Source: Algoriphagus boseongensis
GTDB taxonomy: Bacteria > Bacteroidota > Bacteroidia > Cytophagales > Cyclobacteriaceae
Direction: 5' to 3'
DNA: 64,000 bases
Assembly: GCF_004362805.1 (NCBI RefSeq)
Contig: NZ_SNYF01000007.1
Location: forward strand, 372,001-436,000
Position numbers and translations under genes: made by a program. How positions within the stretch are numbered: the first letter of the stretch is position 1; each line of letters starts with the position of its first letter. The notes under the pieces are model-generated. The model worked only from the letters and a program-made list of their open reading frames with translations. It did not search any database and was not told the DNA's origin. Positions 12,638-36,503 of this stretch are shown here, one piece after another.

Positions 12638-12662
12638 AAATAAACAGGTGGGTAAAGAAAAG

Positions 12663-17427: not shown

Positions 17428-17443
17428 AAGACAAATAAATCCT
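17428..17443. promoter_or_regulatory. Weak candidate Rrf2-type dyad
   Basis: AAGACA-AATA-AATCCT with flanking TTT. It shares GA-A and ATCCTTT positions with the stronger sites at 23805, 30799 and 31308, but its arms match poorly. It lies between the divergent fasciclin gene and the decarboxylase-moaCB operon. Treat as a hypothesis. Confidence 0.25.
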
Positions 17444-17557
17444 TTATTATTTTTTTAGACATTGAAAATTTTTCAGTTTAAGCGGGATTCTTAGCTTTGC
17501 TACTGTCCTTTACAGGATGTTTAATTTGTCTAAAGGAGTTTTTTATCGGTTTTGGGT

Positions 17558-19875: not shown

Positions 19876-22140
19876 TCAAGGAAACTTAAAGCTCACCATC
19901 ACAAAGTAATTTCTCCCAGGTGCATACATCGGAGTTTTGTCCGCGCCGATAGGTCTGCTAAGATGCTCGTAATAGGTCTCATCAAAGATATTTTGGACAC
20001 CACCTTTGACCAGAAGTATTTTTCCGATAGGATACCTGACATCCAGATCTAGCAAAGTGAAGCCTGGAGTGCTTCCCTCTCCAAATGCCTCAGAAACCCG
20101 CTCTTGAGCAATGACATGCCTTAGGTTGATACCTGTTTGAAGTTTCCTATCAAGAAACTGTCCCAAGATTCCATACCTCAAATCCAAAGGAGCGATTTCG
20201 GGAAGTGGAGCATCTAGCACCAAATCCTGTCCATAGGTGTACGCAAGGCCAAGTGAGTGACTGAGATTGCCGGTCAGTTGCTGCTTGAAGTTTATTTCAA
20301 TCCCAGTTTTCACCGCTTTATCCACATTCACATATTGCCTTACACCAGGACTTGTCGCCAAGCGTGGCTTTAGATTTGTTTTGACGGAGGAGATATAGTC
20401 GGTCAAATATGATCCGAATAGAGTGAGTTCCAGGGAGATTTTTTCACGGCCATATCCTAGCACAAGATCCAGCTCATTATTGGTTTCCGGCTTGATCTGA
20501 GGATCTCCGATGAGTTCCCATGGATCCATACCCACTGCCAAATAATTGATGTATCGCTCCAAAAGACTTCCACTTCTCCGGACACTTGCGGCCCAGATTC
20601 CGAGGCTGAATACTTTGCCCAAGTCTCGCTGTGCTCCAATGCTGATACCCGGGTTTAGCTGGGTATCTCCCATTTCAGGATGAAGTTGGATAAACTCTTC
20701 TGCAGGATTATTTGCGATAGCTTCATTTATTTCCAATCTTCCGGAAGCAGTGATTACAGTACCTCCTAAAGGGAATAGATAGTTTGCAAAAAAGCCCGTC
20801 TTACTAATCTGGGAATCCTGCCAGATATTATCATAGAATACTTTTCCGGCCATTGGCCCCATGGTTATCACTCTAGTCCGGGTTCCGTCAGCAGATTCTT
20901 CTTTGTAATCTACTCCTGCGTAAAGTTTTCCTTGGGCAAACTTCCACTCTCCTTCACTTCGGAATCCCCAGTTTTGGGTGATGGCTGGTGTGCTCGCATC
21001 CATCATCCTTGGTTCCCGGAGGAGGTTGTCCATGAGATGATCGACTTTGGTGAAATAGACTGAGTTGGTCCATTGAGCTAGCGATTTGCCAGAGAAAACC
21101 CGGGTATGCTTCAGACTTCCCATCCAGGTGTCATCGTTGCGGAGATCCATACCCAGAGACGGGAAATCTACGTTCCGTGCAAAATTTCGATTGACAGTGA
21201 ACTGGACGAGGTCTCGATTGGTCGCTTGAAAATCAGCATAGATTCCCAAAGTTCCTCTTTTGAAATTGGCAGGAACAGGATTTCCGTCCCCGTCGAGGTA
21301 GTCACTCCCCACAGAATAGCTTCCTAGGACGCCGATATCATAGTTTGAGCCTTGGAAACCTATCCGAGCATCATTTCTCCAGACATCACCATTGGTTTCA
21401 AACATTGATGAAACCCGTCCATAGATCCCCGGGTAAGAAGTGAAATTGGGCGTTTCCTGAATGTAGTTGATTGTGCCACCGAGACCTATGCCATACCGGA
21501 GTGCATGGGGGCCTTTGAGGATTTCCACTTCACGGATTCGATTGAGTGCGATTTGGGAAGTAGGAGGGTCCATGCGGTTGGGACAGGCAGCATTGGCAGA
21601 TTGGAGGCCATTGACAACGATATTGAGTTGGTCGTACTTGAATCCACGCATGACCGGATCAAAACCAAAACTGCTGCTTTTGCGGATTCCGGAGACGACA
21701 GGATCCAGTCCGAGAATTGCCCCGGCATCGTGGTGAAGGCGCTCCTGATCCGAGATGAGAATTTTTTTGTCTTTTTCCTCGGACATTTTCAGGGAAATGA
21801 CTGATACCGGTTGCAGCCCATGGAGCTGCTCTTGACGGGAAATTAACCCTGAGTTTGCAGCTTCGGCTACCTCTTTGGGGTCGAGAGTCCAGCTGCCATA
21901 GCTTAGATGGCTGAGATAGAGCCATGTTTCTCCATCTATGAGAAGCGTGATTTGACCATTTTCGTCAGAGACTCCTCTTTGAAATCCATACCGATAGGTC
22001 ACGCCGGGAATACTTTCCTGGGATTCAGAGTCTTTGATTTGTAAGTTTTTTGTTTGCTGCGCAAAAGCAGAAGAAAGGGTATAAAGTACCAGGGCAAGGG
22101 CAAAAATCATCCCTACAGCTGGCTTGATGAGCTTTTTCAT
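19876..22140 (-). CDS. OprC/NosA-like TonB-dependent copper receptor
   Basis: 754 residues from the ATG at 22140 (the longer reading uses a TTG). Signal peptide to SSAFAQ, a short regulatory-like domain, plug and 22-strand barrel ending in YFVMVSFKFP. In the plug, NAACPNRMDPPTSQ (C186, M190) is the C-x3-M-DPPT motif of OprC-type receptors, in which the Cys and Met bind copper. A methionine-rich loop VITMGPMAGK may supply further ligands. OprC homologs (NosA) were linked to copper supply for N2O reductase in pseudomonads. Here it is in an operon divergent from the nosZ region, with a shared promoter dyad. Copper is therefore a better guess than siderophore iron. The motif is seen; the role is inferred. 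Confidence 0.85.
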   Translation of the reverse strand: MKKLIKPAVGMIFALALVLYTLSSAFAQQTKNLQIKDSESQESIPGVTYRYGFQRGVSDENGQITLLIDGETWLYLSHLSYGSWTLDPKEVAEAANSGLISRQEQLHGLQPVSVISLKMSEEKDKKILISDQERLHHDAGAILGLDPVVSGIRKSSSFGFDPVMRGFKYDQLNIVVNGLQSANAACPNRMDPPTSQIALNRIREVEILKGPHALRYGIGLGGTINYIQETPNFTSYPGIYGRVSSMFETNGDVWRNDARIGFQGSNYDIGVLGSYSVGSDYLDGDGNPVPANFKRGTLGIYADFQATNRDLVQFTVNRNFARNVDFPSLGMDLRNDDTWMGSLKHTRVFSGKSLAQWTNSVYFTKVDHLMDNLLREPRMMDASTPAITQNWGFRSEGEWKFAQGKLYAGVDYKEESADGTRTRVITMGPMAGKVFYDNIWQDSQISKTGFFANYLFPLGGTVITASGRLEINEAIANNPAEEFIQLHPEMGDTQLNPGISIGAQRDLGKVFSLGIWAASVRRSGSLLERYINYLAVGMDPWELIGDPQIKPETNNELDLVLGYGREKISLELTLFGSYLTDYISSVKTNLKPRLATSPGVRQYVNVDKAVKTGIEINFKQQLTGNLSHSLGLAYTYGQDLVLDAPLPEIAPLDLRYGILGQFLDRKLQTGINLRHVIAQERVSEAFGEGSTPGFTLLDLDVRYPIGKILLVKGGVQNIFDETYYEHLSRPIGADKTPMYAPGRNYFVMVSFKFP

Positions 22141-22216
22141 GATTATGATTTTGGTAAACAATTGGGACAAAAAGTCCTAAACCGACCAATTGGTCAGTCT
22201 TTTTCTCTGGAAAAAA

Positions 22217-22594
22217 TCAGCTCTGAGGAGGGTGAAAAAAATCAAAAGCAGAACCTGTGGCCAGATTAAATTGATCAAATGGGGTGTAGGAAAATTCCAA
22301 GTTGACTGTTGAATGAGGGTTTAAAGGTTCAAAAGTGACTTGTTCAACGAAAACAAGTCTGAGCTCTTCTAGGGTAATCTCGGTCTGGCCTTCAGTCTGA
22401 TTTTTAGCCTCTGAAAGTCGCTTTCCCAATTCGCATTTTCCGTCGCATTGGAGTTCGGGTTTATCCTTGTTGATGCAATACAAAGCAGTGATTTCCTCCC
22501 GGTCCATGTAAAAATTTACTTGGATAAATGTATACCCCATCCCATTGAGCAGGATCAAAACGATCAGGACGCTATTTAGCACAGCTTTAGCCAC
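22217..22594 (-). CDS. Small exported cysteine protein of the copper receptor operon (hypothetical)
   Basis: 125 residues starting at GTG, which overlaps the end of the NnrS-like gene by 8 bp. One N-terminal hydrophobic segment (VLNSVLIVLILLNGMGYTF) could be a signal or membrane anchor. Then LYCINKDKPELQCDGKC has three cysteines (C-x10-C-x3-C) that could bind a metal or form disulfides. The C-terminus is acidic and aromatic, ending HPPQS. I do not recognise a named family. Position between an NnrS-like protein and a copper receptor suggests a periplasmic metal-related role; this is an inference. Confidence 0.7.
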   Translation of the reverse strand: MAKAVLNSVLIVLILLNGMGYTFIQVNFYMDREEITALYCINKDKPELQCDGKCELGKRLSEAKNQTEGQTEITLEELRLVFVEQVTFEPLNPHSTVNLEFSYTPFDQFNLATGSAFDFFHPPQS

Positions 22595-23715
22595 GAGTGT
22601 TCAAAATTGGTTCAGGGTTTTCTGTTCTTCGGTGATTTAGGTTACCATCGCCCCCTTTTTTCCGGATTTTCCAAATGACAATTCCTGCCATCAGCCCAAA
22701 TTGAATCAGAATCAGATAGCCATTGGCGATGCCGAAAATTTTGCGAAGCTCATAAACTTCAAGAAAGCCAAATAGAATTCTACCTGCTAAACTGACTTGA
22801 AAAAGCGTCCAGGACACCCATAGAATCGGGTGATATGGTGTCTTCCTGATGCCGAAGATGGTTGGGAAAATGATCGGGGCATGAGCCCAAATCATAGAGA
22901 AAGAAAAGCCCAAAAAGAAGGTATGGAGAATCAAATCATAGAATAGAGGATGGTTTTCCAAAACAACTAAAATGATCCCCTGCGTACCAAGCCAAAGATA
23001 TCCAGTCCTCAATCCAATACCCAAATATCGAAACTGACCGTTTTTTTTTGACGAGGACTTTGGCTATATCGAAAACCCAAAGCCAGGCAGCTATCAGCAA
23101 AATTCCTATTCCCAACAGTTCATTTCCCCAAGTATGGAAAGGGACAAGTAGACCAATAAATACAAGCACTAAATGAAGGGATAGGGCATTCTTCGCCCAG
23201 GGAACCACTGGTAAATACTGACTTAACTCCAGCCTCTCTCCTACAATAGTGAAAAGTAAAAATCCCATCCACAAAGTAGTCCCCGCTGCAACCAAGCCGG
23301 ATCTCCAGGTTATGAAATTACCGATAAACCAAAACATGGCTCCGGCATACAGTAGATAAGTATGTAAATAGGGCTTTTTGACCGATTGCAAATGCATGAT
23401 GATTCCCAATCCCAATGATCCGGCAAGTAAAAAATAGAATCCAATCTGGATCATCCCGGCGAGAAAAAAGAACAAAGAAAGCCCTGTCAGAAATGGGATT
23501 GCCAGCCAGATTTTTTTCTTCAACACCATAGCTCGCTCAAGTGAAATCAGCGTTCCCAAAAATCCCCCGACCATCAGCAGGCCGTGATTCAATCCTGCCG
23601 AAGCGACTGGAATCATGGGACTGCCCAGTCGGATCCATCCACCTGAAATGCCTCCCAAGAGTCCCAGCAGAACCAAAGGAAGTAGTAAGTAGGGTTGGGA
23701 TAATTGGAATTTCAT
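22587..23715 (-). pseudogene. NnrS-like membrane protein gene, frameshifted at an A9 tract
   Basis: Two overlapping frames together make one polytopic protein of about 375 residues. Frame 1 (23715 down to 22936) gives GLNHGLLMVGGFLGTLISLERA and many hydrophobic helices, typical of NnrS, a family linked to protection from NO. At T9 on the plus strand (23041-23049; AAAAAAAAA in the mRNA) the reading becomes KKKRSVSIFG and ends without family-like sequence. Removing one A (A8) continues as KKNGQFRYLG then LRTGYLWLG in the second frame (23024 down to 22587) with further membrane helices. It may be a true pseudogene, an assembly error or a slippage-controlled gene. First gene of the copper receptor operon, with an NO-type operator upstream. 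Confidence 0.75.
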
Positions 23716-23778: not shown

Positions 23779-23820
23779 CAAAGATATATCTGGTTTTTAA
23801 TAAAAGATAAAAATATCCGA
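23779..23820 (-). promoter_or_regulatory. Promoter with Rrf2-type dyad for the NnrS-receptor operon
   Basis: Minus-strand -7 element TATCTTTG at 23779-23786 (perfect TAnnTTTG). Dyad AAGATA-AAAA-TATCCG at 23805-23820 covers the expected -33 position, which fits repression. The dyad resembles those at 30799-30814 and 31308-31323. Confidence 0.55.
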
Positions 23821-23954
23821 TAATATTTTAAAGGAATGACTGTAATAATTAATTAGACCATTTGCGTCCTAAGTTTGATGCAAAAATTCCTATGTATTTC
23901 TTATTACTGAATTCTGCTAATAACTTTTAGAAATTCGTGCTGAAACAATATCGG

Positions 23955-24344
23955 ATGAAAGCATCTCTTAAAGATCACAGGCAAAAGGTCTACCAGACAA
24001 AAGACACCACCAAAGTAGAAGCTGGCCTAAAAGAAGTTGGCTTTGGTATTCTCACCGAAATTGGCATTCAGGCCACAATGAAGAAAAAACTGGATAAAGA
24101 TTATCCTCCTTTTCAGATTTTAGGAGCATGCAATCCGGTGTTTGCGGATAAAGTCTTGACTGCCGAGCCGAATGTCAGTACGCTGTTGCCCTGCAATGTG
24201 ACCATCCAAAGTCTTGGAGGTGAAGACTAGGAAGAGACCATCATGGATCCTGCCGCAGCAATGTCTGTGGTCCAAAATCCTGCAATCGAGTCTTTGGCAG
24301 GAAAGGTAAGAGGCAAGCTGATGAGTATGCTGGAGAGTTTGTGA
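23955..24344 (+). pseudogene. DUF302-family gene broken by an in-frame TAG
   Basis: The reading frame from the ATG at 23955 (or a GTG at 23937) gives FGILTEIGIQATMKKKLDKD and then ILGACNPVFADKVL and VSTLLPCNVTIQ, the hallmark segments of DUF302 proteins (usually 125-160 residues). It stops at TAG 24228-24230, but the same frame continues with the expected C-terminus: MDPAAAMSVVQNPAIESLAG then KVRGKLMSMLESL, ending at TGA 24342-24344. The N-terminal helix (DHRQKVYQTKDTTKVEAG) also looks abnormal. It is thus a recently inactivated gene, unless TAG is read through. DUF302 proteins have no firm function, and no neighbour depends on it. Confidence 0.75.
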
Positions 24345-24567
24345 TTTAATCCAGATCAACTGATTTTCGAATTTACATTCTGGGCTGAGGGAATCTTTCC
24401 TTGTAAGTCTTCCAAATTTGGGAGACTTTTTTTGTGGGTTAGGGAGTTTAGGCAAAAAGCCATTTGCGGCTCAAAATCAATTCCTTTTTCTGAAGAGGAT
24501 TGAGTTTATTTTATTCAAATTAAAATCCAGAAAAATTTTGCGTGAGGAAGAAATTTATTTAAATTTG

Positions 24568-24581
24568 TTAGTAAATACTCA
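24568..24581. promoter_or_regulatory. TetR operator 1
   Basis: TTAGTA-AA-TACTCA, a near-perfect dyad, 11 bp before the tetR start codon. An identical 14-bp copy occurs at 25192-25205. Two identical copies flanking a TetR gene strongly suggest autoregulation. Confidence 0.7.
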
Positions 24582-24592
24582 CTTACAATACT

Positions 24593-25171
24593 ATGCCCAT
24601 TTCAGAACGCCAAAAAGAAATCATCGATGCAGCAGGGAAAATCCTGACGCAGTCTGGTATCAGCGGATTGACGACCAAGAATCTGGCCAGGGAGATGGGA
24701 TTTTCGGAGGCTGCGATTTATCGGCACTTTCCGAGTAAGGAGGCAATCATTCTCGCTATGTTGGGTTTTCTGAGATCAAATATGGATTCGCGTCTGGCTG
24801 CGGTAAACCAATCTCAGGGATTGGAGGAACGATTAAGAGCGATTTTCTCCAGTCAATTTTCCTTTTTTACTCAAAACCAGCACTTTGTTGTAGCGGTATT
24901 TTCCGATGGGTTATGGGAAGAAAGTGGACAAGTCAATCAGGCAATTTTAGCCTTGATGCAAACGAAGATGAGATATCTCCTCCCACTGATTCAGGAAGGT
25001 CAAAGTCAGGGCCTATTCAAATCATCTATTTCTTCAGAACAAATTGCTCATATAGTATTGGGAGCATTTCGTCTTCACATGTTTAAGTGGCGCGTTTCAG
25101 GGTTCAGTTTTGACTTGGTATCATCCGGTGAAAAGCTGATTGATTCAATTTTAGAAGTTATTAAAGGCTAA
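24593..25171 (+). CDS. TetR-family repressor of the RND efflux operon
   Basis: 192 residues. The N-terminal TetR HTH is clear: ISERQKEIIDAAGKILTQSG, then GLTTKNLAREMGFSEAAIYR with the HFPSKEAII tail of helix 3-4. The C-terminal part (about 70-192) is a ligand-binding helical domain of the SlmA/AcrR-like size. It is the first gene of a tetR-tolC-hlyD-acrB operon, 8-17 bp before the tolC-like gene. Identical operators lie before its own start and at the tolC start, so it likely represses the operon until a ligand binds. The ligand is unknown. Confidence 0.9.
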   Translation: MPISERQKEIIDAAGKILTQSGISGLTTKNLAREMGFSEAAIYRHFPSKEAIILAMLGFLRSNMDSRLAAVNQSQGLEERLRAIFSSQFSFFTQNQHFVVAVFSDGLWEESGQVNQAILALMQTKMRYLLPLIQEGQSQGLFKSSISSEQIAHIVLGAFRLHMFKWRVSGFSFDLVSSGEKLIDSILEVIKG

Positions 25172-25188
25172 AAAAAAATTTGCGTATC

Positions 25189-26505
25189 ATGTTAGTAAAT
25201 ACTCACAAACAAATCTTCCTCACCTTCCTGATATTTTTAATGGGATGGTCGGCCAAAGCGCAGGTATGGACGCTGGACCAATGCCTGGATTCTGCGCTTC
25301 AGTACAACAAGTCTCTGGAGATGGCAAGGAATCAAATTTCGGCAGCCGACTTGAAGCATGCCGAGTCCCGAAGTCAATTGTTGCCCAAGCTGATGGCTTC
25401 GGGTGATTACCGGTATTTTACCGAAATACCCTATCAATACCTTCCTCAGGCTGCTTTTGGAGGTCCGGAAGGTGTCTATAAACCGATCCAGTTTGGGGTT
25501 CCGCATAATTTTTCGGCCAATCTTTCGCTGAGGATGCCGATCTATGACCCGCAGGTTTTGGCAGGAATCCAGATTTCTGAATCCTATCAGGAGTTGGCTG
25601 ATTTGCAGCGGGTCCGAACCGAGGAGCAGGTGTATTTGGAAGTTTCCCATCTGTACTACAATGCCCAGATTCTTAAAAACCAACTCGATTTTCTCCGGCA
25701 AAACCAGGCGAATGGGCAAAAACTGGAACGGAATACCCGATTGCTTTATGGACAAAAACTGGCCACAGGAACAGATCTCGACAAGGTCCTGCTTCAAAAT
25801 CAGCAGCTTGCGGCTCAAGTTCTCCGTCTCGAAAATCAATATCAAATAGTAATTCAGCAGCTGAAATTGAATATCGGGCTGTCACTCGAAAAGGAACTGG
25901 AAATCAATCCGGAAATCCTGTTGCATGAGGAAAGTATTGTCGATCCGGTTTTGACCTCCGACTTTAAAATTCAGGAGATTAAAGAGAAAACCGTAAATCA
26001 GGAGCTCCGCGCTTTGAAGCAATCCAAAATTCCAAGTTTGAATCTGATTGGAAATTATGGTACCACTGGCTTTGGATATAACGGGGCTCCGGAGTCTTTT
26101 CTGAAATTTTACCCAGTGAGTTTCATTGGTGCACAAGTAAGTTTTCCAGTATTTAATGGTACGATTACCACCAAGAGAATAAAGCAAAAGGAACTGGAGC
26201 TGGCTAATGCTTCCATCCAAAAAAGTCTGATTCAAGATCAAAATCTGGTGCAATATCAATCTGCAACTCTTCAGCAAAAAACGGCTGAAAGCCAGATTCT
26301 AACTTCACAATCCCAAATCAAACTGGCTGAATCCATCTATGCCAAAACACTCCTCCAACAACAGGAGGGACTGGCAACCTTAACAGACATTCTACTTGCT
26401 GACAATGCGCTTCGTGATTCGCAACAGCAATACCTCAATGCTTTGGTGGACTACCTCAAAGCAACCCTCGAACTCAAAAAATCCACAGGCACTCTTCTTA
26501 ATTAA
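25189..26505 (+). CDS. TolC-family outer-membrane efflux protein
   Basis: About 438 residues from the ATG at 25189 (a TTG at 25180 is also in frame). A signal peptide ends at GWSAKAQ. WTLDQCLDSALQYNKSLEMA is the typical OEP opening, followed by two coiled-coil-rich repeats (RQNQANGQKLERNTRLLYGQ, then later QQEGLATLTDILLADNALRD). The protein forms the outer-membrane duct of the tripartite pump. The start region overlaps TetR operator 2, so codons 2-6 carry the operator sequence. It is 3 bp from the adaptor gene. Confidence 0.92.
   Translation: MLVNTHKQIFLTFLIFLMGWSAKAQVWTLDQCLDSALQYNKSLEMARNQISAADLKHAESRSQLLPKLMASGDYRYFTEIPYQYLPQAAFGGPEGVYKPIQFGVPHNFSANLSLRMPIYDPQVLAGIQISESYQELADLQRVRTEEQVYLEVSHLYYNAQILKNQLDFLRQNQANGQKLERNTRLLYGQKLATGTDLDKVLLQNQQLAAQVLRLENQYQIVIQQLKLNIGLSLEKELEINPEILLHEESIVDPVLTSDFKIQEIKEKTVNQELRALKQSKIPSLNLIGNYGTTGFGYNGAPESFLKFYPVSFIGAQVSFPVFNGTITTKRIKQKELELANASIQKSLIQDQNLVQYQSATLQQKTAESQILTSQSQIKLAESIYAKTLLQQQEGLATLTDILLADNALRDSQQQYLNALVDYLKATLELKKSTGTLLN
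25192..25205. promoter_or_regulatory. TetR operator 2, inside the tolC start region
   Basis: The same 14 bp as operator 1 (TTAGTA-AA-TACTCA), flanked by G and C in both. It begins right after the ATG at 25189 and so lies within codons 2-6 of the tolC-like gene. Confidence 0.65.
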
Positions 26506-26508
26506 TCC

Positions 26509-27558
26509 ATGAAAAAGATACTATATATCCTCATTCCTTTGGCTATTGTAATAGCCGTGGTGGCCAAGTTGGCGATGAACAAAAAGATCGCTACTGAGCG
26601 GGTGTATTCCTATGACCGTGATCTGGCTATTCAGGTCAATGCGCTGAAGGTTAGTGCTTCCAGTGTACAGCCGGAATATGGTTTTACCGGGACCTTTGAA
26701 CCCAACCGGGAGACCAAATTGAGCGCTGAAGTGCAGGGAAAAGTCAATCGGGTGTTGGTGGAAAATGGCAGTCTGGTCAGAAGAGGACAGGTGCTGATTC
26801 AGCAGGATGATGCCTTGCTTCAGCTCCAACTTAAATCCGCTCAAGTCCAAATCAACGGACTGGAAGCAGATCTCAAGCGCTATCGGATTCTTGTAGAAAA
26901 TGATGCGATTCAGGGGATTCAGCTTGAAAAAACCGAGATGGCGATGGAATCCGCTCAGGTTCAGATTAGCACGCTGAAAGAGCAAATCAGTAAAGCGGCT
27001 ATCCGAGCGCCTTTTGATGGGGTAGTGACAGCCAAGCTGACCGAAGAAGGGGACTTTGCAGCTCCCGGAAAACCGCTGATTCAACTCACCGATATCTCAA
27101 AACTTAAATTGACGATTCAGGTGCCTGAGCAGGATTTGAAGCTTTTTGAGCAGGGAAAAGAATACCAGATTCAGATTCCAGGGCTTTCACAGGAAGCAAC
27201 CGGTAAAGTCAACATGGTTGGAAGTCGAGGTAATGCAGGAAACAGCTTTCCAGTGGAAATCATCATTCCAAACACTTCAAAGCAGGAAATCAAGGCGGGT
27301 ATGTTTGGCGAACTCAAGATGAAAACGGAGGCAGGACAATCAGGAATTCTGATTCCTGCAGTTGCGATCCTTGGTTCCGATCTTTCACCGCAGGTGTACT
27401 TGGTAAAAGACGGGAAAGCAGTCCTTCAAAACATCCAAATCGAGAAGCGATTCCCGGATCAAGTTTTGGTCAGATCAGGTCTGAGCGAAGGAGACGTGCT
27501 GATTGTCGGAGGCCTGATCAATGTCTTTGAAGGTGCCAATGTAACCGCCAACTTCTAA
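26509..27558 (+). CDS. RND efflux periplasmic adaptor (HlyD/MFP family)
   Basis: 349 residues. An N-terminal membrane anchor or uncleaved signal (ILYILIPLAIVIAVVAKLAM) precedes the barrel-sandwich (lipoyl-like) halves: FTGTFEPNRETKLSAEVQGK with NRVLVENGSLVRRGQVL, and later AAIRAPFDGVVTAKLTEEGD. An alpha-hairpin lies between them (LQLKSAQVQINGLEADLKRY region), then a beta-barrel and a membrane-proximal domain. It links the inner-membrane pump to the TolC duct. It ends 10 bp before the permease gene. No metal-binding His/Met-rich tail is visible, so it is unlikely to be a heavy-metal adaptor. Confidence 0.92.
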   Translation: MKKILYILIPLAIVIAVVAKLAMNKKIATERVYSYDRDLAIQVNALKVSASSVQPEYGFTGTFEPNRETKLSAEVQGKVNRVLVENGSLVRRGQVLIQQDDALLQLQLKSAQVQINGLEADLKRYRILVENDAIQGIQLEKTEMAMESAQVQISTLKEQISKAAIRAPFDGVVTAKLTEEGDFAAPGKPLIQLTDISKLKLTIQVPEQDLKLFEQGKEYQIQIPGLSQEATGKVNMVGSRGNAGNSFPVEIIIPNTSKQEIKAGMFGELKMKTEAGQSGILIPAVAILGSDLSPQVYLVKDGKAVLQNIQIEKRFPDQVLVRSGLSEGDVLIVGGLINVFEGANVTANF

Positions 27559-27568
27559 TCCTCGCGAC

Positions 27569-30500
27569 ATGAATATCACATCAATTGCTATCAACCGACC
27601 CTCGCTGATCATCGTTTTGTTCAGCTTATTTATCCTGCTCGGCTACATCGGTTACACCAATTTGTCCTATGAATTGATGCCGGATTTCAATCAGCCTGTA
27701 CTCGTGATCAAAACGGTCTATCCGGGTGCGGCACCTGAAGAGGTGGAAAGTTCGGTTTCTGAAAAAATAGAAGATGCACTTTCCAATCTGGAGGGAGTGG
27801 ACTATTTGATCACCAAATCCCTTCCGAATGCTTCGGTGGTGATCGCCAACATGAAATACGGGGTGGATCTGGATCAATCCATGCTGGATGCGCAACGCTA
27901 CATTGATAATGTCCGAAAGGATCTTCCTGATGAGGTTTTGTCTCCGGTGATGAGTAAAGTTTCTCCCAATGATCTGCCGATTATGTCCATCACGGGCACG
28001 AGCAAGATGGGAAGTACGGAATTTTACCAGCGGATGAAAGATGAGTTTTTGCCTCAAATCCAACAACTCAAAGGAGTAGCGGAAATCACCATTCTGGGAG
28101 GTGAGCAACGGGAGGTGCAGGTGAAAGTAGATCAGGAAAAACTCCGCCAATACAAGATTTCTCTGCAACAGGTTGTGGATGCTATCAACCGTTCGGGATT
28201 GGATATTCCGGCCGGTGTAGTGCAGACTGACAAGGAGCAAAGTGCGGTAAGACTTACCGGAAAGTTCAAAACGCTTGAAGATATCCAAAATGTGCAGGTC
28301 GCGATGCCCATTCCGGGTTCGCCGATTTATGTGAGAGATTTGGCTGTTGTGAAAGATGGCATCCGAGAGATCACTTCCATTAGCCGGTACAACGGGCAGG
28401 AAGGAATAGGAATGATGCTCAAAAAGCAGGGAGATGCCAATGCCGTGGATGTTTCTAAGGCAGTTCGGGAGCGATTGGCTTTGATCGAATCACAAAATGC
28501 TGACGCTGGGGTGAAGTTTATTATCGCGGATGACAGTACTGACAATACCATTGCAGCGGTGGATTCGGTGATTTTTGACTTGATTTTGGCTGTGATTCTG
28601 GTTTCGCTCGTGATGCTTCTCTTTTTGCGAAGCTTCAGAAATTCGCTCATCGTAATCGTAGCAATTCCGACGTCTTTGGTGACAGCTTTTGCTGTGATGT
28701 GGATTTTGGGCTATACGCTCAATCTGATGACTTTGCTTGCCATGTCGCTGATTGTCGGAATCTTGGTGGATGATGCCACGGTAGTTTTGGAAAATATCCA
28801 GCGACATCTCGATATGGGTAAGGATAAGCGGGTGGCTTCGATGGAAGGAAGGATGGAAATCGGATTCTCCGCACTATCGATCACCTTGGTAGACGTGGTG
28901 GTTTTCCTTCCAATCCTCTTTTTACAGGTGTTTGTAGCGGATATGCTCAAGCAATTTTCTGTGGTGGTCATCACTTCCACCTTGACCAGTTTGCTGGTTG
29001 GATTTACGCTGACTCCGTGGATGGCTTCCCGAATTGGAAAATCTGAGGACCTACAGCCTACTAATTTCTTCAACCGTTTTTTGATTGGGTTTGGGCATCA
29101 ATTGGATCGGTTTGTGGCTTGGTACGGCCGTCAGTTAGACTGGGTACTGGAGCACAAACTGGCATTTGCAGGGATCGTTCTGGGGCTTTTTGCAATGACC
29201 GGAATCATCATGAAGCAAGGAATCATCGGAAAGGAATTGATCGCAACCGGAGATCAGGGCAAGTTCAGATTGTATCTGGAGTTTGATAAATCCACCTCTA
29301 TTAAGGAAAACAACCTCAAAACCTTGGAAGTCGAAAACTTCCTGCTCCAGCAGCCTGAGGTTGCTACTATCTTCAGTAATGTTGGTGGGCCAACCACAGG
29401 AATAGGAAGCTTGGGAGTGGGGGCGGCCTTCAAATCAGAGTTGACGATTCAACTTAAGGACAAGAAAGAAAGAGGAGATATCCCGACTGAAACCTATATG
29501 GAAAATATGCGGGAGGAGCTAAAGAGGAAGTTTCCCGGTGCCAGTTATTCCATAATTGCTTTGGGATTGATCCCTAGATCTGCTCCAATTGAGATGACCG
29601 TCAGCGGTCCGAGTACAGAAGCAGTAATGACTGTGGCGAACAACCTCAAAACCGTGGTAGAAAATATCCCCGGGGCAGATTATGTGAAGCTTTCTGTGGA
29701 AGAGGGAGGCTCTGAATTTCAAATCATCCCAGATCAGGATCGATTACAGCGGCTGGGATTGAATAATGCTTTTGTCGGATTGAATGTGCGAACTGCACTT
29801 ACCGGAAACGATGATGCTACGCTGACTGAGGCAGGAACAGAATATCCGGTGCGGATCCAGTTGGATAATTTCAACCGTCAAAACTTCGAAGATGTAAAGC
29901 GTTTGACTTTGGTGAATCCGGCTGGAATACCCATTGAGCTTTCCCAAGTAGCAGCTATTGTGCAGGACAAGTCACCCTCACTTTTGGAGCGGATGGACAG
30001 ACAGCCTGCAGTGACACTGACAGCAAATGCACTGGGAAGACCATCCGGAACAGTGGCCGATGATGTGGTCGCATATCTTAAAGAAAATCCACTACCAGCC
30101 GGGGTCAATATGGTTTGGGGAAGTGATATCAAAAGGCAAAATGACAGTTTTGGGGCTTTGGGATCAGTTTTATTGATTTCCTTCCTCCTCATTTACTTGA
30201 TCATGGTGGCCCTTTACGATAGCTTTATCTATCCGTTTGTGGTGCTTTTCTCCATTCCCGTTGCTGTGATTGGAGCCTTTTTAGCACTTAATCTTTCAAT
30301 GAATAATCTCAGTTTGTTTGCTCTTCTAGGCTTGATTATGCTGATGGGCTTGGTAGCCAAAAATGCAATTCTGATCGTGGACTTCACGAACCAACTCCGT
30401 GAAACAGGTATGGAAGTGAAGGAAGCACTCAAGAAAGCTGGTCAGGGAAGAATGAGACCGATTTTGATGACGACACTATCCATGGTGATCGGAATGCTGC

Positions 30501-30679
30501 CGATAGCCCTGGCGACTGGCACGGCGAGTGAGTGGAAAAATGGATTGGCTTGGGTAATTATAGGAGGCTTAATGTCTTCCTTGATTCTGACAGTCTATCT
30601 AGTTCCGGTTGTTTATTTAGCCGTGGAAAATTTGAGATTGAAGTTGACCCGAAAAAAAGAATCAGCCAAAGTATTTTGA
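27569..30679 (+). CDS. RND multidrug efflux permease (AcrB/MexB-like, HAE-1 type)
   Basis: 1036 residues, the usual length for the family, with 12 membrane helices and two large periplasmic loops. The N-terminus INRPSLIIVLFSLFILLGYI precedes helix 1; the first porter loop has YPGAAPEEVESSVSEKIEDA. Helix 4 carries the proton-relay acidic pair in LIVGILVDDATVVLENIQRH. The second half has LMGLVAKNAILIVDFTNQLR and RMRPILMTTLSMVIGMLPIA, both family signatures. Drug export is the most likely role; the substrate is unknown. Last gene of the tetR-led operon, followed by a terminator. Confidence 0.95.
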   Translation: MNITSIAINRPSLIIVLFSLFILLGYIGYTNLSYELMPDFNQPVLVIKTVYPGAAPEEVESSVSEKIEDALSNLEGVDYLITKSLPNASVVIANMKYGVDLDQSMLDAQRYIDNVRKDLPDEVLSPVMSKVSPNDLPIMSITGTSKMGSTEFYQRMKDEFLPQIQQLKGVAEITILGGEQREVQVKVDQEKLRQYKISLQQVVDAINRSGLDIPAGVVQTDKEQSAVRLTGKFKTLEDIQNVQVAMPIPGSPIYVRDLAVVKDGIREITSISRYNGQEGIGMMLKKQGDANAVDVSKAVRERLALIESQNADAGVKFIIADDSTDNTIAAVDSVIFDLILAVILVSLVMLLFLRSFRNSLIVIVAIPTSLVTAFAVMWILGYTLNLMTLLAMSLIVGILVDDATVVLENIQRHLDMGKDKRVASMEGRMEIGFSALSITLVDVVVFLPILFLQVFVADMLKQFSVVVITSTLTSLLVGFTLTPWMASRIGKSEDLQPTNFFNRFLIGFGHQLDRFVAWYGRQLDWVLEHKLAFAGIVLGLFAMTGIIMKQGIIGKELIATGDQGKFRLYLEFDKSTSIKENNLKTLEVENFLLQQPEVATIFSNVGGPTTGIGSLGVGAAFKSELTIQLKDKKERGDIPTETYMENMREELKRKFPGASYSIIALGLIPRSAPIEMTVSGPSTEAVMTVANNLKTVVENIPGADYVKLSVEEGGSEFQIIPDQDRLQRLGLNNAFVGLNVRTALTGNDDATLTEAGTEYPVRIQLDNFNRQNFEDVKRLTLVNPAGIPIELSQVAAIVQDKSPSLLERMDRQPAVTLTANALGRPSGTVADDVVAYLKENPLPAGVNMVWGSDIKRQNDSFGALGSVLLISFLLIYLIMVALYDSFIYPFVVLFSIPVAVIGAFLALNLSMNNLSLFALLGLIMLMGLVAKNAILIVDFTNQLRETGMEVKEALKKAGQGRMRPILMTTLSMVIGMLPIALATGTASEWKNGLAWVIIGGLMSSLILTVYLVPVVYLAVENLRLKLTRKKESAKVF

Positions 30680-30737
30680 TTCTGATTGAGATCTCAGCTT
30701 TCAGTCTGAGAAAAAGTTACTGATTAGGATTAGTCAA

Positions 30738-30777
30738 AGCCTCCATTTTCATTAGAAAGTGGGGGCTGATTTTTTTT
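30738..30777 (+). terminator. Terminator after the RND operon
   Basis: AGCCTCCA (30738-30745), 14-nt loop, TGGGGGCT (30760-30767; one G-T pair), then GATTTTTTTT. Confidence 0.75.
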
Positions 30778-30798
30778 ATCACTATAAAAAAATATTAC

Positions 30799-30836
30799 AG
30801 GATATTTTTATCCTTTAATATATTCTTTTACATTTG
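30799..30836 (+). promoter_or_regulatory. Promoter and perfect Rrf2-type dyad before rrf2
   Basis: AGGATA-TTTT-TATCCT at 30799-30814 is a perfect 6-bp inverted repeat, followed by a perfect -7 element TACATTTG at 30829-30836. The dyad covers the likely -33 position, an arrangement expected for autorepression. The rrf2 ATG is 22 bp after the -7 element. Confidence 0.65.
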
Positions 30837-30857
30837 ATCATCAATTCAACTTAAGTG

Positions 30858-31289
30858 ATGTTTTCCAAAGCCTGTAAATATGCCATCAATGCGATGATCT
30901 ACATTTCCACCCTGCCGGGGGGAAATGATCGGGTTAGCTTGAAAGACATTTCAAAGGCGATCAATTCTCCTGAAGCGTTCACTGCAAAGATTTTACAGGT
31001 ACTAGTCCGAGAAAATTTACTTTCCTCTATAAAAGGCCCAAATGGCGGTTTTGAGATTCATGAGGATGGAAGAAAGACGCAGCTCTATCGAATCGTGCAA
31101 GTGATTGACGGGGATCAGATCTTCATCGGTTGTGCGTTGGGCCTTGAAAAATGCTCAGAAGATCATCCCTGTGCTGTTCACAATAAATTCAAAGCAATCC
31201 GTGAACATCTCGCCGGAATGATGCTGACTACTTCGCTGGAGGATATGGCCAAAGGGATAAAAAATGGAACCAACTTCTTAAAGATTTAA
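30858..31289 (+). CDS. Rrf2-family regulator, likely NO/Fe-S sensor of the nos region (paralog 2)
   Basis: 143 residues from the ATG at 30858 (a GTG lies one codon earlier). A winged HTH (SKACKYAINAMIYISTLP, AKILQVLVRENLLSSIKGPN) and three cysteines at C92, C99 and C105 (IGCALGLEKC, then SEDHPC), the same positions as in the paralog at 16.2 kb. Fe-S Rrf2 regulators of this type (NsrR and relatives) lose DNA binding when NO attacks the cluster. It lies 41 bp before the RIC gene, which has the same operator, and its own promoter carries a perfect copy. A repressor of the downstream RIC-nos operon is the simplest reading; sensing of NO is inference. Confidence 0.9.
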   Translation: MFSKACKYAINAMIYISTLPGGNDRVSLKDISKAINSPEAFTAKILQVLVRENLLSSIKGPNGGFEIHEDGRKTQLYRIVQVIDGDQIFIGCALGLEKCSEDHPCAVHNKFKAIREHLAGMMLTTSLEDMAKGIKNGTNFLKI

Positions 31290-31307
31290 AAAAAATTCAA
31301 TTTATAA

Positions 31308-31323
31308 AGGATAAAAATATCTT
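31308..31323 (+). promoter_or_regulatory. Rrf2-type dyad directly before the RIC gene
   Basis: AGGATA-AAAA-TATCTT, five of six arm positions symmetric, only 7 bp before the RIC ATG at 31331. The site would block transcription entering from a promoter upstream, and also ribosome loading if bound on DNA near initiation. It matches the sites at 23805 and 30799. Confidence 0.6.
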
Positions 31324-31330
31324 AAATATC

Positions 31331-32050
31331 ATGAACGAGATCGCAGAAAAGAAAGTAGGAAGCATTGTGGCGGGGAATTTCCGCACTGCTAAAATCTTCA
31401 CCGATTATGGAATTGATTTCTGCTGCAAGGGCGGAATCAAACTCAGTGAGGCCTGTGAGAAGAAAGGCGTGAATCTCGATGAAATCACATCCGAACTCGA
31501 GCAAGTGGTAAAGCAACCGGATGAAACGCATTATCAGGACTTTGGCATGACTGATTTAGTAGATCATATTGTCAATGTTCATCACAAATACGTGGAGACC
31601 ACCATTCCAGCTCTGAAATTTTATCTCGATAAAATCGCAAAAGTCCATGGCGATAATCATCCTGAGCTTTTAGAGATCCGGGATGAGTTTTTCAAGACTT
31701 CTGATGCACTGACCTCCCATATGAAAAAGGAGGAGTTTATTCTTTTTCCTTACGTCAAAGCCATGGAGTCAGCGAGGAAAAACCATTTCCCACTTTCTCC
31801 TGCGCACTTTGGAAGTATCGAAAATCCAATCGCAATGATGGAAGAGGAGCATGATACCGAGGGTGAGCGCTTCAGAAATATATCCGCACTGAGCAATAAT
31901 TACACGCCTCCTGCTGATGCTTGTCAGACTTATAAGGTCGCTTTTGCGATGCTTCAGGAATTTGAGAATGACTTACACACTCATATACACCTGGAAAACA
32001 ACATCCTTTTTCCTGAGGCCAAAGAAGTTTTTAGCAGCCTGAATGCCTGA
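31331..32050 (+). CDS. ric: RIC-family di-iron protein, repair of iron centres (YtfE/ScdA)
   Basis: 239 residues. Residues 1-60 form the ScdA_N domain with the paired cysteines YGIDFCCKGGIKLSEACEKK. Residues about 75-235 are a hemerythrin-like four-helix bundle with metal-binding His/Glu: VDHIVNVHHKYVET, SHMKKEEFILFPYV, MMEEEHDTEG and HTHIHLENNILFPEA. These proteins release iron to repair Fe-S clusters after NO or oxidative damage, and are cytosolic. It leads the operon with nosZ, which makes biological sense for an organism that meets NO before reducing N2O. The next gene starts 3 bp after its stop. Confidence 0.95.
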   Translation: MNEIAEKKVGSIVAGNFRTAKIFTDYGIDFCCKGGIKLSEACEKKGVNLDEITSELEQVVKQPDETHYQDFGMTDLVDHIVNVHHKYVETTIPALKFYLDKIAKVHGDNHPELLEIRDEFFKTSDALTSHMKKEEFILFPYVKAMESARKNHFPLSPAHFGSIENPIAMMEEEHDTEGERFRNISALSNNYTPPADACQTYKVAFAMLQEFENDLHTHIHLENNILFPEAKEVFSSLNA

Positions 32051-32053: not shown

Positions 32054-33856
32054 ATGATCACTCAAAATCCAATATTGTCCACATTCTCTTTTTCCTCCGT
32101 GGTTCAATTCCGCCAGAATTGGATAAGATGGGCGTTTGGATTTTTCTTTCTGGCTGTTTGTCTGGGATTGGTAATGAGGTCATTTCACGTGGTTGAGATT
32201 CCTTACTTCGAATACCGAAATATCCTTCACACGCATTCCCATCTCGCTTTGCTGGGTTGGGGACATTTGATGCTTTTAGGAGGGATAGTCTTTGGCTTGG
32301 TGAAGGAAAAAGACCAAGTCAAAGATTATAAGTGGCTTTTCTTGGGAACGATTCTATCGCTATTGGGAATGCTGTTTTCTTTCCCTTTCCAGGGATATGG
32401 AGTGATCAGCATCAGTTTTTCCACGCTTCATGTGTTGCTTTCCTATGGTTTTGCATACAAGCTTCTAAAGGTAATCAGGTCCATAGAAAAGACCCCTGCC
32501 ACTCGTCTGATTCGTCTTGCGATTTGGTTTATGGTGATTTCCACATTTGGACTTTGGTCACTAGGGCCAATATCTGCGACGCTCGGCAGGATGCACGAGC
32601 TCTACTTCATGACGATTCAGTGGTTTCTTCACTTCCAGCTGAATGGTTGGTTTGTGTTGGGAGTACTCGGATTGATCCTTCTCTTCTTCGAGGAAAAAGG
32701 ATTTAAAATCACTTGGACGGCCTATCAAGAATGGATCCTTTCGATCTCTGTGATCCTGACATTCATGCTTGCTGTGACTTGGGCCGAACCGAGACCAATC
32801 TTCTTTCAAATCAATGGATTAGCTGTGATTATTCAGCTGATCGCCTATTCCTGGATTTTGAAGTCAGTTTTCATATTGCTCAATTCAAATCAACTCAAGG
32901 GCTTTGCCCAACTGCTTTTGATTTTGGCTTTGGCAAGTCTGGTTGCGAAAGCGATTCTTCAGGGACTTCTGGTTTTTCCATCCATAGCGGTGATTTCCTA
33001 TTCGATCCGCATGTATGTGATCGGATTTCTTCACCTGGTTTTATTGGGAGCGATGACCATGGGAGTTTCGGCAGTGGCGATCGCCCGAGGCTGGATCAGT
33101 GAACAGCCGATAAGCCGACTTGGGTGGATTCTAATGATTTCAGGCTTTGTGATCACCGAGTTTTTACTCTTTCTGCAGGGTACATTGATTTGGCTGAAGA
33201 TGGGCTTTTTGCCCGAATACAACTTTTGGCTTTTCCTCGCTTCCTGCCTCTTTCCGCTCAGTCTTGCCTTCCTTTTTGCAGGCTTAAGATCAAATGAATT
33301 TTCCAACCAATCTATATCAAATTCTAAAACCCGATTACAAAAACGAATCAATCCTGAGACTATGAGAAAAACTATGATTTGGTCAATGGGTGTCCTGGGG
33401 ATACTCCTGACTTCATGTGGGGGAGGAAGTGGCGAAAGCTCGAACTCCACTGCTACTGAAATCGCTCCAAAAGAAGAAGTAAAGGCCGATCCCAAAGGAA
33501 TCGGAGAATTCAAAACAGTCGAAATCGGTGAAGGAATCGACGAAACATTGGCTGCCTCCGGCAAAGCCATTGTGGACATGAAATGTACTGCTTGCCACCA
33601 GTTGAATGACAAGAGGCTGGTAGGTCCGGGATTTCAAGGTGTCACCAATAGGAGAAGACCTGAATGGATCATGAACATGATCACCAACGTAGATGTGATG
33701 CTTGATCAAGATCCTGCAGCGCAAAAGCTTCTGGAGGAATGTCTCACTCGCATGCCTAATCAGAATATTACTCTAGATGATGCGAGAGGTATTCTGGAAT
33801 TTATGAGAAAAAATGATGAAGAAAAGGCAGGTCAGCGCGATGCTGCCACCAAATAA
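32054..33856 (+). CDS. Polytopic membrane protein fused to a lipoprotein-type cytochrome c
   Basis: 600 residues in one uninterrupted frame. Residues about 25-415 are a membrane domain of roughly a dozen helices with a histidine motif NILHTHSHLALLGWGHLMLL and FMTIQWFLHFQLNGW, reminiscent of haem-binding membrane proteins of nor/nos clusters, but I cannot name the family. Then a short linker and MRKTMIWSMGVLGILLTSC (starting at 33362), which itself looks like a complete lipoprotein signal peptide. The C-terminus is a class I cytochrome c with MKCTACHQLND (CxxCH) and a distal Met in LTRMPNQN. It could be a true fusion or two proteins with an internal start. Most likely it passes electrons to NosZ. 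Confidence 0.75.
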   Translation: MITQNPILSTFSFSSVVQFRQNWIRWAFGFFFLAVCLGLVMRSFHVVEIPYFEYRNILHTHSHLALLGWGHLMLLGGIVFGLVKEKDQVKDYKWLFLGTILSLLGMLFSFPFQGYGVISISFSTLHVLLSYGFAYKLLKVIRSIEKTPATRLIRLAIWFMVISTFGLWSLGPISATLGRMHELYFMTIQWFLHFQLNGWFVLGVLGLILLFFEEKGFKITWTAYQEWILSISVILTFMLAVTWAEPRPIFFQINGLAVIIQLIAYSWILKSVFILLNSNQLKGFAQLLLILALASLVAKAILQGLLVFPSIAVISYSIRMYVIGFLHLVLLGAMTMGVSAVAIARGWISEQPISRLGWILMISGFVITEFLLFLQGTLIWLKMGFLPEYNFWLFLASCLFPLSLAFLFAGLRSNEFSNQSISNSKTRLQKRINPETMRKTMIWSMGVLGILLTSCGGGSGESSNSTATEIAPKEEVKADPKGIGEFKTVEIGEGIDETLAASGKAIVDMKCTACHQLNDKRLVGPGFQGVTNRRRPEWIMNMITNVDVMLDQDPAAQKLLEECLTRMPNQNITLDDARGILEFMRKNDEEKAGQRDAATK

Positions 33857-33879: not shown

Positions 33880-35838
33880 ATGAAAACAAACAATTGGCTA
33901 CTTGCTGCTGGGCTTTTTGCCGCAGCAATAGCACCTGGATGTAAACCCAAAGGCGCCCAAACCGCCATCACTGGGGATGCCGCATCCAAAGTCTATGTGG
34001 CTCCGGGCCAGCATGATGAGTTTTACAACATCGTCTCAGGCGGATTCAACGGACAAATGTCCGTGGTCGGTCTGCCTTCCGGGCGAGTTTTAAAAATCCT
34101 CCCAGTCTTCTCGGTAAACCCAGAAAATGGGTATGGATTTTCTGAAGAATCTAAACCTATGCTCAATACCTCAAACGGTTTTGTGCCTTGGGACGATTTG
34201 CACCATATCGCAATTTCCACTACCAATGCAGAGCATGATGCTAGATGGGCCTTTGGCAATGCGAACAATACTCCAAGAATTGCCAGGGTAGATTTGAATA
34301 CCTTCAAAACAGTAGAAATCATCGAAATTCCGAATTCGGCAGGAAACCACTCGTCTCCCTTTATTACTCAAAATACAGAGTACGTGGTAGCAGGTACCCG
34401 ATTTTCGGTGCCTGTGGGCGAGAATAGAGATGTGCCTATCGATACCTACAAGGATAACTTCAAAGGCCATATTTCTTTCATCGGCGTCAATCCAGAATCT
34501 GGAGAAATGGACATATCATTCCAAATCGAAGCTCCGCCATTTAACTTTGACTTAGCCAGAGCTGGGAAAAATAAGTCTCATGGATGGTTCTTCTTTTCTA
34601 CCTACAATACTGAGATGGCTCATACTCTTTTGGAAGTGAATGCTTCCCAAAAGGATAAGGACTACATCATGGCTATTAACTGGAAGAAGGCAGAGGAATA
34701 TGTCAAAGCCGGAAAAGGCACCAAAAAGAAAGTGCGCTATGCCCATAACAAATGGAATGAAGAAACCCACTCTGCCACCTCTACGATCAAGGAAGAAGTG
34801 CTCGTACTGGATCCCAAAGAGCTCAAGGATATGGTCTACTTTATTCCTTGTCCCAAATCTCCTCACGGTACAGATACAGATCCTACCGGAGAATACATTG
34901 TAGGAAGTGGAAAGCTCGCGGCAATAATTCCGGTGTTCTCCTTTACCAAAATGCTCAAAGCCATTGAAAACAAGGATTTTGAAGGAGAATTAAGCGGCAT
35001 GCCCGTTTTGAAATATGAATCTGTACTCCATGGAGAAGTAGAGAAGCCAGGATTGGGACCTCTGCACACTGAATTTGACGGTAAAGGGTTCGCCTATACT
35101 TCCATGTTTGTTTCTTCAGAGGTGGTAAAATGGAATATCGAAACGCTGGAAGTGGTGGATCGTGTTCCGACCTATTATTCTGTTGGGCACTTGAGTATCC
35201 CTGGCGGTCCTACAGGCAAGCCTCATGGGAAATACATGATTGCTTACAATAAGATCACCAAAGATCGGTATTTGCCTACCGGCCCTGAGCTGACCCAGTC
35301 TGCACAGCTTTACGACATCTCAGGAGACAAAATGCAGCTGCTCCTGGACTTCCCAACTATTGGTGAGCCGCACTATGCAGAAGCCTTCCCTGCCAGTCTG
35401 ATCAAAGATCGTCAGGTGAAATTCTATCCTTTGGAGAAAAATGCCAGCCCCTATGTCTTGAAAGGAATCAAAGATGCCCGTGTGGAGCGCAAAGGAAACC
35501 AAGTCCATGTTTACATGACTTCCATTCGATCCAATTTCAGACCGGACAATATTGAAGGAGTATTTGTAGGAGATGAGGTGTATTTCCACGTGACCAATCT
35601 GGAGCAAGACTGGGATGTGCCGCATGGCTTTGCTGTCAAGGGTGCCAATACCGCAGAACTGCTCATCATGCCAGGTGAGACCTCAACCCTGAAGTGGGTT
35701 CCTGAGAAAGAAGGAGTTTATCCATTCTATTGTACAGACTTCTGCTCTGCATTGCACCAAGAAATGCAAGGCTACATGCGGGTATCTGCTCGTGGATCCA
35801 ATGTACCTCTGAAGTACTCTACTGGAGAATCCGATTAA
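33880..35838 (+). CDS. nosZ: Nitrous oxide reductase, clade II (Sec/lipoprotein type)
   Basis: 652 residues, the copper enzyme that reduces N2O to N2 in the periplasm. The signal has no twin-arginine motif but a lipobox-like AIAPG-C at about residue 21, as in clade II (atypical) NosZ. The seven-bladed propeller holds the CuZ histidines: WDDLHHIAIS, NAEHDAR, KSPHGTD, GPLHTEFD, GKPHGKY and GEPHYAEAF. The C-terminal cupredoxin has CTDFCSALHQEM (C618, C622, H626, M629) and VPHGFA (about H582) as CuA ligands. All copper ligands expected by family knowledge are present, so the enzyme should be functional. It is followed by a strong hairpin. Confidence 0.97.
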   Translation: MKTNNWLLAAGLFAAAIAPGCKPKGAQTAITGDAASKVYVAPGQHDEFYNIVSGGFNGQMSVVGLPSGRVLKILPVFSVNPENGYGFSEESKPMLNTSNGFVPWDDLHHIAISTTNAEHDARWAFGNANNTPRIARVDLNTFKTVEIIEIPNSAGNHSSPFITQNTEYVVAGTRFSVPVGENRDVPIDTYKDNFKGHISFIGVNPESGEMDISFQIEAPPFNFDLARAGKNKSHGWFFFSTYNTEMAHTLLEVNASQKDKDYIMAINWKKAEEYVKAGKGTKKKVRYAHNKWNEETHSATSTIKEEVLVLDPKELKDMVYFIPCPKSPHGTDTDPTGEYIVGSGKLAAIIPVFSFTKMLKAIENKDFEGELSGMPVLKYESVLHGEVEKPGLGPLHTEFDGKGFAYTSMFVSSEVVKWNIETLEVVDRVPTYYSVGHLSIPGGPTGKPHGKYMIAYNKITKDRYLPTGPELTQSAQLYDISGDKMQLLLDFPTIGEPHYAEAFPASLIKDRQVKFYPLEKNASPYVLKGIKDARVERKGNQVHVYMTSIRSNFRPDNIEGVFVGDEVYFHVTNLEQDWDVPHGFAVKGANTAELLIMPGETSTLKWVPEKEGVYPFYCTDFCSALHQEMQGYMRVSARGSNVPLKYSTGESD

Positions 35839-35893: not shown

Positions 35894-36475
35894 ATGAAAA
35901 AGCTCAGTACCCTCAATCGACTATTGATTCTAATCGCCGCATTGACGCTCATTCCAGCCTATTTTACACCGCTCTGGCAAATCAGCCTTTGGGCTCCTCA
36001 ATATCCCGAAGGGCTGAATATGAAGATCTGGATTGATCACCTCAGTGGCAATGTGGATCAAATCAACGGAGTTAATCATTACATCGGTATGAAACATATC
36101 GGAGATGAGATGTTTCCGGAATTTGAGTATTTGGTCTATGTGATTGCTGGGATGATCGCTTTTGGAGTCCTTGCTTTTGGAATTGGAAGACGATGGGCTC
36201 TTTATAGTTTCTTCGGCTTGATTACCCTTTTCGGAATGCTAGTATTGGCAGATATGTACCGCTGGGGATATGAATATGGTCACCACCTAGATCCCACTGC
36301 GGCCATTAAAGTCGAAGGGATGAGTTACCAGCCTCCCTTAATCGGGTACAAAGAATTACTGAATTTTCTGGCTTATTCGGGACCAGATACTGGAAGCTGG
36401 ATTTTGATCGGGGGATCAGCCCTGCTGATTTTTGCGATCCTTCGGGACCGAAGGGAAAAACCCACCATGATCTAA
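35894..36475 (+). CDS. Membrane protein of the clade II nos cluster
   Basis: 193 residues, four likely membrane helices (LLILIAALTLIPAYFTPLW; LVYVIAGMIAFGVLAFGI; ALYSFFGLITLFGMLVLA; WILIGGSALLIFAIL). The large loop after helix 1 has QINGVNHYIGMKHIGDEMFP, with His and Met residues that could bind copper or haem, and the later loop has DMYRWGYEYGHHLDP. Proteins of this type are common between nosZ and nosL in Bacteroidota clusters. Their biochemical role is not established. A copper-handling or electron-transfer role is plausible from the His/Met content and context. Confidence 0.75.
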   Translation: MKKLSTLNRLLILIAALTLIPAYFTPLWQISLWAPQYPEGLNMKIWIDHLSGNVDQINGVNHYIGMKHIGDEMFPEFEYLVYVIAGMIAFGVLAFGIGRRWALYSFFGLITLFGMLVLADMYRWGYEYGHHLDPTAAIKVEGMSYQPPLIGYKELLNFLAYSGPDTGSWILIGGSALLIFAILRDRREKPTMI

Positions 36476-36503
36476 ATTTCTTCACAGATAACCCAATTAT
36501 CCT

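Follow-up and report, generated by a model that had tools for sequence, protein, structure and literature searches.

A conserved dyad operator and a candidate Rrf2-type regulon for iron-centre repair, N2O reduction and copper uptake in Algoriphagus boseongensis

A 64,000-nucleotide stretch of the Algoriphagus boseongensis genome (the window) was compared with related genomes. This comparison gives good support to a shared, autoregulated Rrf2 regulon that would join the repair of iron centres to N2O reduction and copper uptake. As an earlier note on this DNA had proposed, one operator was common to the three arms and tied to an autoregulated rrf2 gene. The comparison showed it conserved with these genes in the family and beyond. 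The Rrf2 protein encoded at 30858 is probably an Fe-S repressor, released by NO, of the rrf2-RIC-nos, nnrS-copper receptor and fasciclin-rrf2b operons. Bacteroidota with clade II nosZ, many of them non-denitrifying, are regarded as natural N2O sinks. With an operator, a named regulator gene and a list of targets, it becomes testable when N2O reduction switches on and why copper import would be tied to it.

Operator sites in the genome

All three dyads described in the earlier note were present in the sequence at, or within 1 nt of, the positions it gave: AAGATA-AAAA-TATCCG at 23804-23819, AGGATA-TTTT-TATCCT at 30799-30814 and AGGATA-AAAA-TATCTT at 31308-31323. The window was scanned with a symmetrised 18-mer matrix whose training set consisted solely of rrf2-homologue promoters of other genomes. 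These dyads ranked first to third, a site that the note had missed ranked fourth, and the next match reached only 9.8 bits (Table 1). The note claimed three sites where at least four exist. Its observation is confirmed, and in a stronger form than first stated. The sequence of the fourth operator was found unchanged before the fasciclin gene of one relative, and three further loci carried other sites before this gene.

Table 1. Features of the candidate regulon in the window, by position.
Feature	Position	Strand	Basis or remark
Second rrf2 (rrf2b)	16224..16661	-	44% identical to first; same Cys3-His motif and FTAKILQ core
Fasciclin-like lipoprotein gene	16772..17326	-	ORF list; named from sequence
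TAAATTTG, -7 element (TAnnTTTG) at fourth operator	17405..17412	-	19 nt after TTTG inside operator
Fourth operator AAGGATTTATTTGTCTTT, before fasciclin gene and second rrf2	17427..17444	-	15.0 bits
TonB-dependent receptor, closest to copper receptors (OprC/NosA type)	19876..22170	-	TIGR01778 218 bits, best family, below cut-off 472
Small protein between nnrS and copper receptor	22217..22594	-	adjoins nnrS and OprC in relatives
nnrS-like gene, split by frameshift	22587..23715	-	intact homologue in relatives matches both frames
TATCTTTG, -7 element of nnrS promoter	23779..23786	-	21 nt after TTTA of dyad
Operator TCGGATATTTTTATCTTT, before nnrS-ORF-copper receptor operon	23803..23820	-	19.6 bits
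Operator CAGGATATTTTTATCCTT, before rrf2	30798..30815	+	21.2 bits, matrix from other genomes; covers expected -33 element
TACATTTG, -7 element (TAnnTTTG) of rrf2 promoter	30829..30836	+	18 nt after TTTA of dyad
rrf2 regulator gene, C92-x6-C99-x5-C105-x2-H108	30858..31289	+	PF02082, TIGR00738, fold matches
Operator AAGGATAAAAATATCTTA, between rrf2 and RIC	31307..31324	+	20.9 bits
RIC (YtfE/ScdA-type di-iron repair protein)	31331..32050	+	TIGR03652 240.6 bits, cut-off 204.7
Membrane domain fused to cytochrome c domain	32054..33856	+	PF00034 at residues 500-586
NosZ, Sec-type (clade II) N2O reductase	33880..35838	+	TIGR04246 924 bits, cut-off 625
ORF35894, NosL, NosD, NosF, NosY; one operon with NosZ	35894..39681	+	PF05573 for NosL; ORF list; gaps <=55 bp

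The short motif AGGATANNNNTATCCT, allowing two mismatches or fewer, matched the window 10 times against 3.1 (sd 1.7) expected, a number reached in 0 of 100 shuffles. Over the whole genome, with the same tolerance, it was not commoner than the control (182 vs 221). The short motif was therefore modestly enriched in the window and not enriched genome-wide, and the case rests on conservation. That AT-rich dyads are chance matches near promoters would fit the genome-wide counts and a perfect short-motif copy inside holB (C4:49816), which was itself dismissed as chance. This reading is contradicted by the conservation and target specificity given below, and we consider its probability negligible. 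Whole-genome counts with a loose consensus were uninformative.

The 18-mer pattern, with one mismatch or fewer, occurred at 32 places in the 4.18-Mb genome. Four of these were the window operators, lying within 13.9 kb of one another (p 1.5e-4, uniform placement) and among the few good sites in this genome that precede genes; the remainder fell mostly in coding sequence. Three more lie outside coding sequence: one stands between two convergent genes and scored 17.3 bits, another is upstream of a glpD-like gene (16.5), and the third falls within a divergent gap (16.4). They were put down to chance or left without explanation.

Promoter architecture

TAnnTTTG is the -7 promoter element of Bacteroidota. 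At the nnrS and rrf2 sites of the window the dyad lies over the expected -33 element beside a perfect TAnnTTTG, as had been claimed. Of 177 sites, 65 had TAnnTTTG at a distance of 31-34 nt from where the operator starts, which is a sharp peak; in shuffles the figure was about 0.1-0.2 per position. Among rrf2 operators it was found at offset 28-36 in 59 of 76, a spacing that puts the operator over the -33 element there. Many Cyclobacteriaceae had a second operator copy (AAGGATATATTTGTCCTG) about 27 bp downstream, over the -7 element itself. Placement over the -33 and -7 elements favours repression as the putative mode of control. Sites before nirK, norC and nos usually lacked a perfect TAnnTTTG at that spacing and had a different geometry.

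The description of the dyads as marking three promoters held for rrf2 and nnrS and is doubtful for RIC. The RIC-proximal site lacks TAnnTTTG and stops 7 bp short of the RIC ATG, so an auxiliary operator inside the rrf2 operon is likelier than a separate promoter; in this genome the site is probably not an independent promoter.

Conservation and targets in Bacteroidota

Searching with the regulator together with its orthologues yielded 80 named loci, most of them from Cyclobacteriaceae (Algoriphagus, Aquiflexum, Belliella, Cecembia and others) and Flavobacteriaceae; the sequences are related, and p-values from them overstate independence. When the regions upstream of the 80 rrf2 genes were submitted to unbiased motif discovery, the motif obtained was GGATAwwwTTGTCC, which usually lay 55-63 nt 5' of the start codon; the position of the A. 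boseongensis operator, about -58 from the ATG, is shared with most of these relatives. A second sample, drawn independently from across the phylum, had a site scoring 13 bits or more between -52 and -65 in 21 of 27 rrf2 promoters. Some Flavobacterium rrf2 promoters among the 80 loci were without a site, yet RIC and norC nearby carried one.

Matches of at least 14.5 bits in these loci were intergenic in 171 of 184 cases, with 13 inside genes. Sites preceded RIC (46/74), the copper nitrite reductase gene nirK (13/21), a NorC-like cytochrome gene (7/13), quinol NO reductase (qNor; 3/17), nnrS (2/5), fasciclin genes (4/19) and a gene for a small cysteine-containing protein of Winogradskyella (4/8). 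In Flavobacteriaceae, nos operons begin with a cytochrome c gene, followed by a fasciclin gene and then nosZ, and a site preceded this first gene in 6 of 8 cases. NirK scored above its curated cut-off; the names NorC and qNor were given from sequence and context, with no family match behind them. In total, 87 of 176 NO/N2O genes other than rrf2 had a site against 13 of 741 other genes, 10 of these 13 being divergent from rrf2 or rrf2b, with a promoter region in common. The earlier note had staked its proposal on co-occurrence of the motif with these genes in relatives, which holds, the nnrS-copper receptor operon included.

In genomes without a close Rrf2, a good site was found near RIC in 0 of 13 cases (one weak distal match, 13.8), but this control does not discriminate, since the site was likewise mostly absent from RIC lying elsewhere in genomes with Rrf2. 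No hmp gene was seen among the targets.

The half-site and the 4-nt spacing of the dyad recall FNR boxes, and in some Flavobacteriaceae a separate Crp/Fnr-like dyad adjoins the operator in nos and nirK promoters. Use of the operator dyad by another regulator, such as a Crp/Fnr protein, is nevertheless very unlikely: it lies directly before rrf2 genes across families, the neighbouring Crp/Fnr-like dyad differs in sequence, and no site was seen at the TetR gene (24593) or among its relatives (0 of 4).

The Crp/Fnr-like dyad (ATATGA...TCATAT) was seen just downstream of the operator before the nos cytochrome c gene and some nirK genes at eight loci, mostly followed by TAnnTTTG near offset 57. Dual control of those promoters is likely.

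The nos, copper receptor and fasciclin arms

Relatives keep the order of the nos operon genes, of which NosD, NosF and NosY were named from order and sequence, with no family search. The product of 32054-33856 has a multi-helix membrane domain, and a lipoprotein-like signal precedes its cytochrome c domain. The fusion is common to close Algoriphagus relatives and was found at four of the named loci. A search of this genome for a NirK catalytic domain and a quinol NO reductase, made without a positive control, found neither. Accordingly, the organism may reduce N2O without itself producing NO from nitrite.

The first fragment of the nnrS-like gene gave no Pfam match, so the name rests on the earlier note and on gene context. 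The frame changes at a run of nine A in the region 22990-23070 (minus strand), which may reflect a true lesion, slippage or faulty assembly. Two of the named loci (361-365 aa) and a same-genus genome have an unbroken homologue. Family-wide, an operator preceded nnrS or RIC2-nnrS in 14 of 14 cases where these open an operon (this genome and 13 relatives) and in 0 of 9 where nnrS is embedded behind nosF-nosY, counting clear cases only, with seven further contexts outside both classes. A Fisher value obtained under a looser classification was not relied on. Seven relatives of the operon-opening set have nnrS, the small protein and the OprC-like receptor in the order found here, and one further locus (L086) reads RIC2-nnrS-small protein-OprC. 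This retention makes the copper link a conserved gene arrangement, and copper is the predicted substrate of the receptor.

At 11 loci, pairs of operators about 75-100 bp apart were seen before nnrS, the second often adjoining the start codon; looping or a road-block is possible.

The fasciclin gene is beside rrf2b here and its homologue lies between cytochrome c and nosZ at seven Flavobacteriaceae loci, suggesting that this fasciclin-like gene may have an unrecognised role in N2O reduction.

The regulator and its paralogue

Membership of the Rrf2 superfamily was given by PF02082 (84.6 bits, cut-off 30) and TIGR00738 (84.6, cut-off 73.3). The predicted fold had a mean pLDDT of 86.7, with CymR, RsrR, NsrR and IscR as top matches, and the protein grouped with those of Algoriphagus boritolerans and close relatives (93-94% identity). 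The three cysteines named in the earlier note, C92, C99 and C105, were invariant in ortholog alignments, and so was H108. All but one of about 100 Bacteroidota homologues had C-x6-C-x5-C-x2-H, from which E. coli NsrR and IscR differ. The core of the recognition helix, FTAKILQ, is unlike that of E. coli NsrR, consistent with a different operator. Placement by a tree with E. coli NsrR and IscR was abandoned because the branches were too long.

The protein encoded at 30858-31289 is likely the regulator of these sites, as the earlier note held, although the second Rrf2, having the same recognition-helix core, could bind them too. A reading in which the operator is real and the paralogue is its main binder, or both proteins compete for it, has a minor but substantial probability. 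The two share the wing KGPNGGF in addition to the helix core and the Cys3-His motif; rrf2b is also preceded by sites in relatives and stands directly behind nnrS at three loci, and other rrf2 paralogues are common. Against this, the operator is most constant at the first rrf2, preceding 66 of 87 genes annotated as rrf2 (some paralogues included) vs 2 of 11 rrf2b genes, and many loci have operators with no rrf2b in view.

Comparison with known Rrf2 systems

A 2005 study of proteobacteria predicted that NsrR controls RIC, nnrS, norB and nirK, with the operator motif gATGyAT-N5-ATrCATc (PMC1274295). As far as the available text of that paper goes, the NsrR regulon (gamma- and beta-proteobacteria, Bacillus, Streptomyces) is similar in having an Rrf2-family regulator, RIC/ytfE (dnrN), nnrS, norB and nirK as targets and palindromic promoter operators; it differs in operator from the GGAYA-N4-TRTCC found here, and no Bacteroidota NsrR sites appear there. 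The target set in our loci (RIC, nnrS, norC, qNor and nirK) is of this NO-related type. E. coli NsrR has C-x4-C-x5-C without the histidine. By curated cut-offs the regulator is not NsrR (29.8 bits vs 182), and its predicted ligand motif, recognition helix and operator differ. A regulon of the NsrR kind with a different regulator motif and a real, conserved operator is well supported by these comparisons.

The NsrR of Magnetospirillum, also an Rrf2 regulator, is sensitive to NO and binds at the promoters of nosZ and norC (PMC11014258). It is alphaproteobacterial, with another motif, and the accessible part of that source does not mention nnrS or a copper receptor as targets. Two papers pointed out Rrf2 genes next to the clade II nos clusters of Bacteroidota and relatives, with Rrf2 control of nos suggested for Melioribacter (PMC6264515, PMC3534657); no operator, regulon or copper link is given in the accessible portions of these papers. 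In the literature searched, largely without subscription papers, no operator or regulon for clade II nosZ Bacteroidota was found.

A histidine at +3 after the last cysteine is conserved, and the ligand loop closes with C-x5-C-x2-H, as in IscR, but the first spacing is x6 here and x5 there; the IscR equivalog cut-off was not reached (52.2 vs 207.55). These features bear on a reading in which the regulon is real and the signal is iron-sulphur status, oxygen or redox, not NO. E. coli IscR (C-x5-C-x5-C-x2-H) has a similar C-x2-H end, and among NCBIfam models IscR outscored NsrR (52 vs 30 bits), both far below cut-off. The targets are, however, NO/N2O genes (nirK, norC, qNor, nnrS and RIC), with isc/suf operons absent among them in the scanned loci, and we judge this reading unlikely. 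NO is thus the favoured signal, as suggested by the kind of genes targeted and by the conserved Cys3-His motif.

Proposed mechanism

The sequence comparison itself establishes where the operators lie, that they overlap promoter elements and are conserved, and which genes they precede. In the model built on it, a dimer of the 30858 Rrf2 protein with a putative iron-sulphur cluster would bind the dyad RGGAYA-N4-TRTCCY. With the cluster intact, it would sit as a repressor on the -33 element, and in relatives also on the -7 element, and would block its own operon from rrf2 through RIC, the cytochrome and nosZ to nosY. The same repressor would shut the nnrS-small protein-copper receptor and fasciclin-rrf2b operons, and the 16224 paralogue may share these sites. 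NO would damage the cluster and the protein would leave the DNA, so that iron-centre repair, NO handling (NnrS), N2O reductase and copper import would be made together. More speculatively, this could be an NO switch of Bacteroidota's own, in which an Rrf2 subfamily with C-x6-C-x5-C-x2-H uses a private operator overlapping TAnnTTTG (contained in GGA-TAwwTTTG-TCC); here foreign NO would cue N2O respiration and copper import.

Elsewhere in the window, sulfatase-like and sialidase-like genes with a TonB receptor occupy 298-16176, apparently a polysaccharide-use region unrelated to the regulon.
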